Source of the DNA: Jatrophihabitans sp.
GTDB taxonomy: Bacteria; Actinomycetota; Actinomycetes; Mycobacteriales; Jatrophihabitantaceae
DNA: 64,000 bases
Direction of reading: 5' to 3'
Assembly (NCBI GenBank): GCA_025924515.1
Contig: JAICIE010000002.1
Location: 1-64,000 of the forward strand
Shown: piece after piece, positions 17,062-23,750 of the stretch
Position numbering within the stretch: the first letter of the stretch is position 1
How the letters are laid out: each line of letters starts with the position of its first letter
Notes under the pieces: generated by a model
The model's input: the letters and a program-made list of their open reading frames with translations, nothing else
The model's database searches: none
What the model was told of the DNA's origin: nothing
Translations under genes and position numbers: made by a program

Positions 17062-20000
17062 GTGATCGCTGTCCTGGTGGGTCTCGCCGTCAAGTTCCGA
17101 GCGCTAGTGATAGGACTCAGCGTCGTCGTCCTCGGACTGGGCATGGCGCAATTGCGCTCCGCCGACGTGGACACCTATCCCGATTTCGCGCCTCCACAGG
17201 TGCAGGTGCAGGCCGAGGCGCTCGGGCTGTCCGCCGCGGAGGTCGAACAGCTGATCACGGTGCCACTCGAGCAGGACCTGCTCAATGGGGTGCCATGGCT
17301 GCACGCCATCGACTCGGAGTCCCTGCCCGGCCTGTCCACCATCGACATGAGGTTCGACGCCGGCACGGATCTCCTGCAAGCCCGGCAGATGGTGCAAGAG
17401 CACCTGACCCAGGCGCACGCGCTGCCGCAGGTCGGCACTCCCCCGGTCATGGTCCAACCCACCGCGGCGACCGGCCGGGTGCTGATGGTCGCGCTGGGCG
17501 CCACGGATCTCTCTCTGGTGGATCTCTCGATACTGGCCCGCTGGAAGATCAAGCCCCGGCTGGAGGGACTTCCCGGCGTCGCGAACGTCGCGATCTGGGG
17601 CCAGCGCGACCGGCAGCTGCAGGTCCAGGTCGACCCGGCGAAGCTGCGCCGCTACGGCGTGAGCCTGCAGCAGGTCGTCAGCTCGACCGGCAACGCGTTG
17701 TGGGTCTCGCCGCTGACCTTCGTCGAGGCGTCGACGCCCGGCACCGGCGGGTTCATCGACACAACCAACCAGCGCCTCGGGATCCAACATGTCACGCCGA
17801 TCACCACCGCGAAATCGCTGTCGCAGGTCACCATCGAGGACACCGGCAAGAGCATCGTGCAGCTCCGACAGGTCAGCTCGGTGGTCGAGGGCCACCAGCC
17901 GCTGGTCGGCGACGCGGTGGTCGGCGACCGCGGCGGCCTGATGCTGGTGATCCAGAAGTTCCCGGGCGCCGACACCCGCGAGGTCACAGAGGCGGTCGAA
18001 GACGCCCTCGACGACATGCGTCCCGGCCTGTCCGGCATCACCATCGACACTTCGGTCTACCGGCCCGCCAGCTACATCGACAGCGCGCTGCACAACCTCG
18101 GGGTGCGTGCGCTCGCGGCCCTGCTGCTGCTGGTGGCCGTGCTGCTCGCACTGTTGCTGTCCTGGCGGTTGGCGCTGCTGTGCTTCGTCTCGGTCTCGCT
18201 GTCGGTCGTCGGGTCCGCGTGGGTCCTCTACCTCGTGGGGGCCACCTTCGACGTCATGACGATCGGCGGCATGGTCGCAGCCTCATGCGTCCTGGTCTCC
18301 GAAGCGGTTCGGGGGGCGGAGGTGTTCCGCCGCGGAACCGCTGTGGACACCGAGCAGACCTTGATCGAGCGCACCCGGTCAACCCGGGCGCCGCTGGTCT
18401 ACGCCACGCTGGTGGCGCTGCTGCTCCCCGTTCCCGCACTCGCCCTGGACGGCGTCGCCGGCTCCTTCGCCCGCTCCGCGGTCGCCGCCTACGCACTCTC
18501 CGTCGCCGTCGCGGCGGTGGTCGCCCACCTGACCGCGCCGGCCTTGGGCTCGCTGCTGTGGCGCGGACGGGCGGCCCGACCCGCCCCCGTCCTCGCAAGG
18601 TTGGAACGCGGCTACGACCGGCTCGCGCGGCGCGCGTCGGTTCGCCGGGCCACCGCGATCGCGGTTCTGGCTCTGCTGATCGCCGGCGCCGCGGTCGTGC
18701 CGCAACTCGGCTCGTCCCGCGCTGCCCTGCCGACCGCGCAGGACCGGGCGCTGACCATCACCTGGCAGGCGGCCGCAGGAACCTCGTTGCCGGAGATGTC
18801 CCGGATGACCACTCGCGCGGTCGCGCAGCTGCGGCAGCTTCCCGGCGTGACCCGCGTCGGTGCGCACATCGGACGGGCGCTGATGGCCGATCAGCCGGTC
18901 GACGTCGACTCGGCGCAGATCTGGGCGAACGTCGCCGAGGGCGCCCCCTACGACCGCACAGTGGCCGCGGTGCGCCAGGTCATGGACGGTTACCCGGGGA
19001 TGCGCGCGCGCCTGGCGACCTATCCGGCCGACCGGATCGCGGCGACTCAGCGGCAGGAGGGCGACGCGCCTGTCGTGGTCCGGGTGTACGGCCCCGACCA
19101 GGCGCAGCTGGCCGCCGAGACGGGGACGATCCGCGCGCTGCTGTCCAAGGTGCCGGGGGTCGGAAATGCGCACATCGTCGCGCAACCCATGGAGCCCGAC
19201 ATCACGCTGCAGGTCGACCTGCCCAAGGCACAGCGGTACGGACTCACGCCCGGTGACGTCCGCCGCGCGTCAGCGACCCTGTTCGCCGGCCTGCCCGTCG
19301 GCAGCCTGTACGAGGACCAGAAGATCTTCGACGTCGTCGTCTGGGGCATCCCGAACGCTCGGCGCACACCGGAGGACGTGGCGGACCTACTGCTCGACGT
19401 TCCCGGACACGGTCACGTCCGCCTCGGCGCCGTCGCCAAGGTGCGGATGGTTCCGCAGCCGACCGCCATCAAGCACGACGACATTTCCAAGTACCGCGAC
19501 GTAACCGCATCGGTGTCCGGCCGCGATATCGGCGACGTCATCTCCGACGTTCGCGACCGTCTGGAGCGGTTGCCCATGGCGAATGAGTTCCACGCCGAAG
19601 TACGCAGCGGCGAGCTGACGTACGACAGCGAGCACTGGCGCGTCACGCTGATCGCCCTGGCCGTGCTGGTAGCCATCCTCCTGCTGCTTCAGCTGGTGGC
19701 CGGCAGCTGGCGGACGGCGCTGATGGTCCTGGTGCTCGCGCCGGCCGGCGCGGTTGGGTCCGTCCTCGCCGCGCCGACCGTCGGCGGAATCACGACCGCG
19801 GCGGGGCTGCTGGGCACGCTCGCAGCCGTGGCCGCCGCCTTCTGCATGGCCGTGCCGCTCGTCCGTGCTGTCGGCGACGCGCCGGCCGTGGCCGCCGCCC
19901 GGCGGCAGGTGGTCCCGGTGACACTGACGGCGTTACTCACTGCAGCCGTGCTGCTGCCCTTTGCTCTCGCCGGTGCGGTCGCCGGCACGGAGTTGCTCCA

Positions 20001-20139
20001 GCCGCTCGCGGTGGTGGCTCTGGCCGGATTGGTCACTGCCCTGCTCAGCACCCTGCTCGTCCTGCCCGCAGTCGTGGGGAGGGCGGTCACCGTGCCCCGA
20101 CGAGAGACCCGTCGGCACCCGCATCCTCAGGAGGGCTGA
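17062..20139 (+). CDS. HME-type RND transporter permease, divergent copy
   Basis: [70 protein letters not shown]; typical CusA/CzcA layout but degenerate TM4 and C-terminal TM motifs. Confidence 0.9.
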   Translation: [1025 protein letters not shown]

Positions 20140-23500: not shown

Positions 23501-23750
23501 GGCGGCGAAGGAGCGGTTGTCACCAATCCTGATGACCTCGTTGGCGACCGGCTTGGCGGTAGTGCCGCTGGTCGCGTTGGGCGATCGACCCGGCTATGAA
23601 ATCGAATACCCGCTGGCGGCGGTCATTATCGGCGGTCTGCTGACGTCAACCCTGCTGAACCTTTTCGTCGTCCCGTCCCTGTATCTGCGCTTCGCGGCGA
23701 GGCGCCGCTGGCGTGTCCACCCCTCGGAACCGCAGGAGGCTTCCGCATGA
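20589..23750 (+). CDS. HME-type RND transporter permease, canonical copy
   Basis: [81 protein letters not shown]. Confidence 0.95.
   Translation: [1053 protein letters not shown]

Follow-up and report, generated by a model that had tools for sequence, protein, structure and literature searches.

We found that the stretch of DNA analysed here (the window: 64,000 nucleotides, positions 1 to 64,000 of contig JAICIE010000002.1 from Jatrophihabitans sp.) encodes in tandem two permeases of the resistance-nodulation-division (RND) family, designated A and B, whose proton relay in transmembrane helices (TM) 4, 10 and 11 is complete in B but not in A, and that the same asymmetry recurs among relatives of the two proteins. 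Judging from their sequences, it is moderately probable that the two assemble into a heteromeric RND exporter, probably a trimer, which is powered by B and in which A would serve as a structural and adaptor-docking partner.

Permease A, the relay-depleted subunit (17062..20139, plus strand, as are all genes described here for the window), is an intact open reading frame of 1025 amino acids with a GTG start behind GGGAG, and permease B, the predicted proton-coupled subunit (20589..23750), has 1053 amino acids and an ATG start overlapping the stop of a lipoprotein gene that lies between the two. Both matched Pfam ACR_tran over their full length, A with 411 bits and B with 729 bits (cut-off 28), and they are the only ACR_tran proteins found in the source genome, which is 82.6% complete. 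Relay positions, given in AcrB numbering unless stated otherwise, were taken from a joint alignment of A and B with AcrB, CusA, MdtB and MdtC. Window B has D407, D408, E414, R940, R971 and T978 (D421, D422, R944, R976 and T983 in its own numbering for all but E414), with the TM4 motif (21807..21878) and the ARNGILLV of TM10 (23406..23447) intact, whereas window A has S407, E408, E414, C940, Q971 and T978. Specifically, TM4 of A (18256..18327) carries S413/E414 in its own numbering (codons 18298-18303) at the place of AcrB D407/D408, followed by R417, an extra arginine three residues past E408 (R411 in AcrB numbering), and then by E420; the region of TM10 and the start of TM11 (19807..19908, with the TM10 motif stretch at 19807-19878) carries C928 at AcrB K940 (codon 19843-19845) and Q949 at AcrB R971 (codon 19906-19908). 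The activity of AcrB depends on every one of D407, D408, K940 and R971 (PMC10924465), and T978 probably takes part in the relay (Takatsuka and Nikaido 2006, as cited in PMC10924465). Because the alignment sets A against residues that are essential in AcrB, A can be read as a permease without the relay in which position 408 is still acidic.

All four motifs quoted in an initial annotation of this DNA were found, at most two bases from where it had placed them, and it was right in stating that the second permease keeps the TM4-type and C-terminal motifs and that the (K/R)NGILLV motif is gone from the first. Its statement that A has lost the acidic pair holds for D407, replaced by serine, and not for position 408, which is still acidic as glutamate; E414 is likewise kept. 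That annotation had also raised the possibility of relay residues at compensating positions in A. Inspection of the sequence revealed no new acid-base pair in TM10 to TM12 of A, and only E408 and R411 are left in TM4.

Relatives were searched for in the phylum (at a threshold of E<=1e-60, 17 of 397 genomes had them), in the family (8 of 24 genomes) and in named genomes, where 314 relatives were detected and 80 loci retrieved; the 92 A and 82 B proteins compared here came from the phylum search together with the named-genome search with the first fetched loci. In all 82 B proteins, D407, D408, R940, R971 and T978 were invariant. Among the A proteins, by contrast, D407 had been lost in 45 of 92, with G, A, H, N, Y, T or S in its place, D408 in 8 of 92, R/K940 in 5 of 91, R971 in 18 of 91 and T978 in 44 of 91, such that the full relay set was present in only 11 of the 92. 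Most A relatives had lost D407, E414, R971 or T978, in differing combinations, while keeping D408 and R940, and the kept or lost state at position 407 changed at least nine times on the A tree. Since the asymmetry recurs throughout these sets of relatives (92 A and 82 B proteins), chance is excluded. Window A is the most stripped A protein seen, the four-residue loss (S/E/C/Q) being present in it alone. The full-length proteins closest to it (61-64% identity) carry A407 and Q971 but retain D408 and R940, and the loss therefore looks stepwise. Within the A family, position 971 was Q in 10 of the 10 proteins with A, S or Y at 407, and R in 27 of the 29 with G at 407. These patterns appear to represent two different routes of relay dismantling; the 10/10 concordance of the correlated loss comprises too few independent pairs for a statistical test.

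The relaxation of A was most pronounced in the relay helices. The ratio of divergence in A to that in B was 3.8 in TM4, 3.7 in TM10, 3.0 in TM12, 2.6 in TM11 and 2.3 in TM6, as compared with about 1.07 in TM1, TM7 and TM8; PN1 had a ratio of 0.92 and the docking domain DN one of 0.80. Stronger relaxation of the relay bundle than of the outer helices held in 36 non-redundant pairs (Mann-Whitney p=5e-9, a value that is descriptive only, as it assumes independent columns and columns related by descent are not independent). Seven of the 19 A-specific near-invariant sites fell in the docking/hairpin region, where about 1.7 were expected (p=8e-4); AcrB P223, which is required for trimer stability, is located in this region (PMC4303003). 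The ratio of nonsynonymous to synonymous substitution rates (dN/dS) of A, calculated against relatives including that of locus L067, was 0.29 overall, 0.21 in the periplasmic part and 0.40 in the relay helices, and the corresponding values for B were 0.16, 0.17 and 0.065, all of them rough, with dS near 1. A is under purifying selection. The initial annotation had named decay unique to this strain as an alternative, against which both the relatives and the dN/dS values speak. In addition, A is relaxed in the PC1 cleft, whereas the cleft residues of B are invariant: H takes the place of CusA M573, and E that of CusA M672, in 82 of 82 proteins, positions at which A is variable.

The two permeases are paired throughout the family. 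Both were present in 75 of the 80 named loci, and the other five reach a contig edge just after A. A precedes B in 74 of the 75 two-permease loci, the sole exception being L132 (Anaeromyxobacter), in which B comes before A. The tandem pair is conserved in Actinomycetota and Chloroflexota as well as in some ten further phyla; the A and B proteins compared came from the two phyla just named and from Gemmatimonadota, Methylomirabilota, Geobacter, Myxococcota, Planctomycetota, Bacteroidota, Deinococcota, KSB1, Latescibacterota and one gammaproteobacterial symbiont. When 36 A and 36 B proteins were placed in one tree with four references from E. coli, A formed one clade (support 86) and B another (support 94), with branches in A about twice as long as those in B, and the clade uniting A and B was separate from MdtB/MdtC with a support of 100, in what is a quick tree with long reference branches. 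A and B are the products of one old duplication, separate from that of MdtBC. Their evolutionary distances co-vary, with a mirror-tree correlation of r 0.85, the best of 999 permutations reaching 0.15.

Tandem permeases with each copy in a clade of its own are found in the heteromeric MdtBC/MuxBC family as well. MdtBC, MuxBC and SmeJK resemble the A/B pair in being tandem permeases from one old duplication that probably form one heterotrimer with unequal roles; however, they have a full-length adaptor and often an outer-membrane factor and have been described from Proteobacteria (PMC7015380), whereas the A/B family shows its asymmetry in the sequence itself and has a truncated adaptor. Both A and B scored far under the NCBIfam cut-offs for MdtB and MdtC and lay outside the MdtB and MdtC clades. 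As a control, we used plasmid-borne MdtBC pairs (13 MdtB and 12 MdtC proteins from E. coli, Proteus, Azospirillum, Granulicella, Methylosinus, Methylocystis, Paraburkholderia, Roseomonas and Caballeronia). No relay residue was missing from any of the 13 MdtB or 12 MdtC proteins, and their relay helices had no consistent extra divergence. Since both MdtB and MdtC keep the relay, the A/B asymmetry is not general to heteromeric RND pumps. A survey of Gram-negative RND genes, from which Actinobacteria and Chloroflexi were left out, reported tandem permeases in the MdtBC clade only (PMC10872679), and no description of the A/B two-permease family was found in the open-licence literature searched. 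With its separate duplication, sequence-level asymmetry and truncated adaptor, the A/B family corrects the view that tandem RND permeases belong to the MdtBC clade only (PMC10872679).

By profile, sequence and structure search, A and B were closest to CusA, CzcA and ZneA, from which they differ in forming a tandem pair and in having neither the Met triad nor a full CusB-type adaptor. Specifically, their scores against TIGR00914 (heavy-metal efflux, HME) were 321 for A and 572 for B, with a cut-off of 701, and the CusA M573/M623/M672 metal triad is replaced by T/S/A in A and by H/F/E in B; a heavy-metal pump of the CusA/CzcA type was ruled out on these two grounds. With the AcrB homotrimer, A and B have the fold in common and B also the relay residues. 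In a linked AcrB trimer, inactivation of one protomer abolishes activity (PMC8277102), whereas in the A/B family a relay-less subunit is the natural state, which implies a different cycle.

The lipoprotein gene between the permeases (20143..20592), which had been overlooked in the initial annotation, encodes a protein of 149 amino acids, here termed the mini-adaptor, with a signal peptide bearing a lipobox (IAGC) and, soon after it, the C-terminal membrane-proximal domain of an RND periplasmic adaptor only; the hairpin, lipoyl and beta-barrel domains of adaptors are not present. Homologues were found in 77 loci from about a dozen phyla, almost always between A and B; among them the lipobox cysteine is conserved. 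The mini-adaptor profile matched the TriAB fusion 6vej (E=1.4e-4), 4l8j (E=0.001) and, weakly, the C-terminal domains of SilB/CusB, and 15 of 31 members matched TIGR01730 RND_mfp. The membrane-proximal domain is thus common to the mini-adaptor and the adaptors TriA/TriB, CusB and SilB, from which most mini-adaptors differ in being lipid-anchored and in lacking the hairpin, lipoyl and beta-barrel parts. Some members are longer and carry additional sequence; such forms were seen in L082, L088, L098, L101 and L103, and the taxa that have them are Chloroflexota, Methylomirabilota and Meiothermus. Neither an outer-membrane factor nor a full adaptor was found among the 25 most frequent of 94 neighbour families (68 neighbour proteins from 11 loci of non-actinobacterial phyla).

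The pairing of A and B, their origin in one duplication, their co-divergence and the relay-focused relaxation of A favour a heteromer with an uncoupled A. The initial annotation had proposed such a complex of one proton-coupled and one uncoupled subunit, which is strongly favoured by these data, and had left A as either structural or substrate-selecting; the structural role is the one favoured, and that of a selector is less supported, since A is relaxed in the substrate cleft that is invariant in B. In the proposed mechanism, B, with its proton relay and its conserved substrate cleft, would drive the conformational cycle. A, freed from the need to translocate protons, would have been retained to assemble the trimer, to provide the inter-protomer hairpin and the pore and to make contact with the mini-adaptor, and its relay would have been fully dismantled in the window lineage. 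The lipoprotein would serve, on the outer side of the membrane, as a truncated adaptor, a secreted beta protein encoded just after B (see below) would be a probable substrate handler, and the complex as a whole would work in the direction of export. Extension of the model to the whole family, as a heterotrimer with relay-dead A protomers, with fewer than three proton-coupled protomers driving the cycle and with an adaptor reduced to the membrane-proximal domain, is tentative, its chances being in our view a little short of even.

Several points weigh against a B-powered heteromer. Part of the co-divergence of A and B would be explicable by co-inheritance in one operon without contact, and further RND genes may be absent from the 82.6%-complete assembly. 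E408 with its nearby arginine could represent an altered relay in window A, and outside the window lineage A may be partially proton-coupled, as D408 and R940 are mostly kept. The AlphaFold2 (AF2) model of A, built from 18 sequences, is of moderate quality, with a predicted local distance difference test score (pLDDT) of 71 and a predicted template modelling score (pTM) of 0.66; the nearest solved folds to it were CusA and ZneA, with a TM-score of about 0.7. The retention of D408 in 84 of 92 and of R/K940 in 86 of 91 A proteins, and of the whole set in 11 of 92, could also mean that in most relatives proton translocation by A continues through D408 and R940 and the pair is an ordinary heteromer, window A then representing a lineage-specific loss. 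We consider this unlikely, although deserving of attention, since AcrB needs all of D407, D408, K940 and R971 (PMC10924465) and half of the A proteins are without D407, since entire helices and not a single residue are relaxed, and since no relay residue is lost from MdtC, which is a true partner subunit.

MdtB2C, in which relay mutations are more harmful in MdtB and the substrate is bound mainly by MdtC (PMC4338810), is a precedent for the B-powered reading and also for a different division of labour. With this direct precedent (PMC4338810, PMC10924465), A might bind and select the substrate and B supply the proton energy, and the faster change of A in PC1 could then mean substrate adaptation; such a split is improbable, however, given a cleft that is invariant in 82 of 82 B proteins and variable in A, whose conservation lies in the pore and docking regions and not in the cleft. 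Marginally less probable still is that A and B form separate homotrimers with different jobs, A being a passive or differently driven transporter. Each is a complete RND protein, which would fit such an arrangement, but the two are never apart in complete loci, a single shared adaptor gene lies between them, and there are subunit-specific invariants in the inter-protomer hairpin. That A is a decaying gene heading for loss might be suspected from window A being the most altered member on a long branch (0.71); we regard this as very improbable, in view of its intact frame of 1025 codons, dN/dS of 0.2-0.4 in every tested region, and close relatives with A407 and Q971 whose frames are intact. Strain-specific decay of A was ruled out by dN/dS and by the relatives with intact frames.

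Known pumps point in different directions as to whether every protomer of an RND trimer has to be proton-coupled: AcrB reportedly speaks for coupling of all three, whereas CmeB and MdtBC are said to suggest otherwise. Repeated loss of the relay in one subunit together with its invariance in the partner constitutes a natural experiment on protomer coupling, and the lopsided pattern in about a dozen phyla suggests a widespread pump whose subunits split power and structure. The mini-adaptor, for its part, may represent a minimal adaptor for study in single-membrane bacteria.

The secreted all-beta protein of the window (23747..24670; 307 amino acids) contains a GEYPEEW/GEYPEEY motif, and its gene is the last of four closely packed genes (A, lipoprotein, B and secreted protein), of which those for B and the secreted protein have starts overlapping the preceding stops. 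Homologues were found in 39 loci, with two copies in L083, L085, L103, L116 and L123. The AF2 model is all-beta (pLDDT 87.5), with a weak likeness in fold to YmcC-like, LolA-like and ependymin-like proteins, and hints that the protein may bind a hydrophobic ligand; no Pfam family and no significant PDB sequence match were found for it. On the 5' side of A, a two-component system consisting of a NarL-type histidine kinase and a LuxR-type response regulator (14776..16901; Pfam HisKA_3, Response_reg and GerE) is a likely candidate regulator of the operon. Homologues of this system adjoin A in the close relatives L067, L069, L070 and L074, on the opposite strand.

Variant arrangements were observed in a few loci. 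For example, A and the mini-adaptor of Streptomyces sp. NK15101 (L073:8842-12708) lie in one reading frame without a stop, possibly a natural fusion, and in an Ardenticatenaceae bacterium (L088:12174-13805) the secreted-protein domain is inserted within the mini-adaptor, suggesting joint action of A, the adaptor and the secreted protein. In two Chloroflexi (L076:12213-15461 and a matching gap in L091), A and the mini-adaptor are separated by extra genes, of which the one that was read encodes a multi-pass membrane protein resembling an ABC-type permease, and the arrangement may possibly represent a merged export locus.

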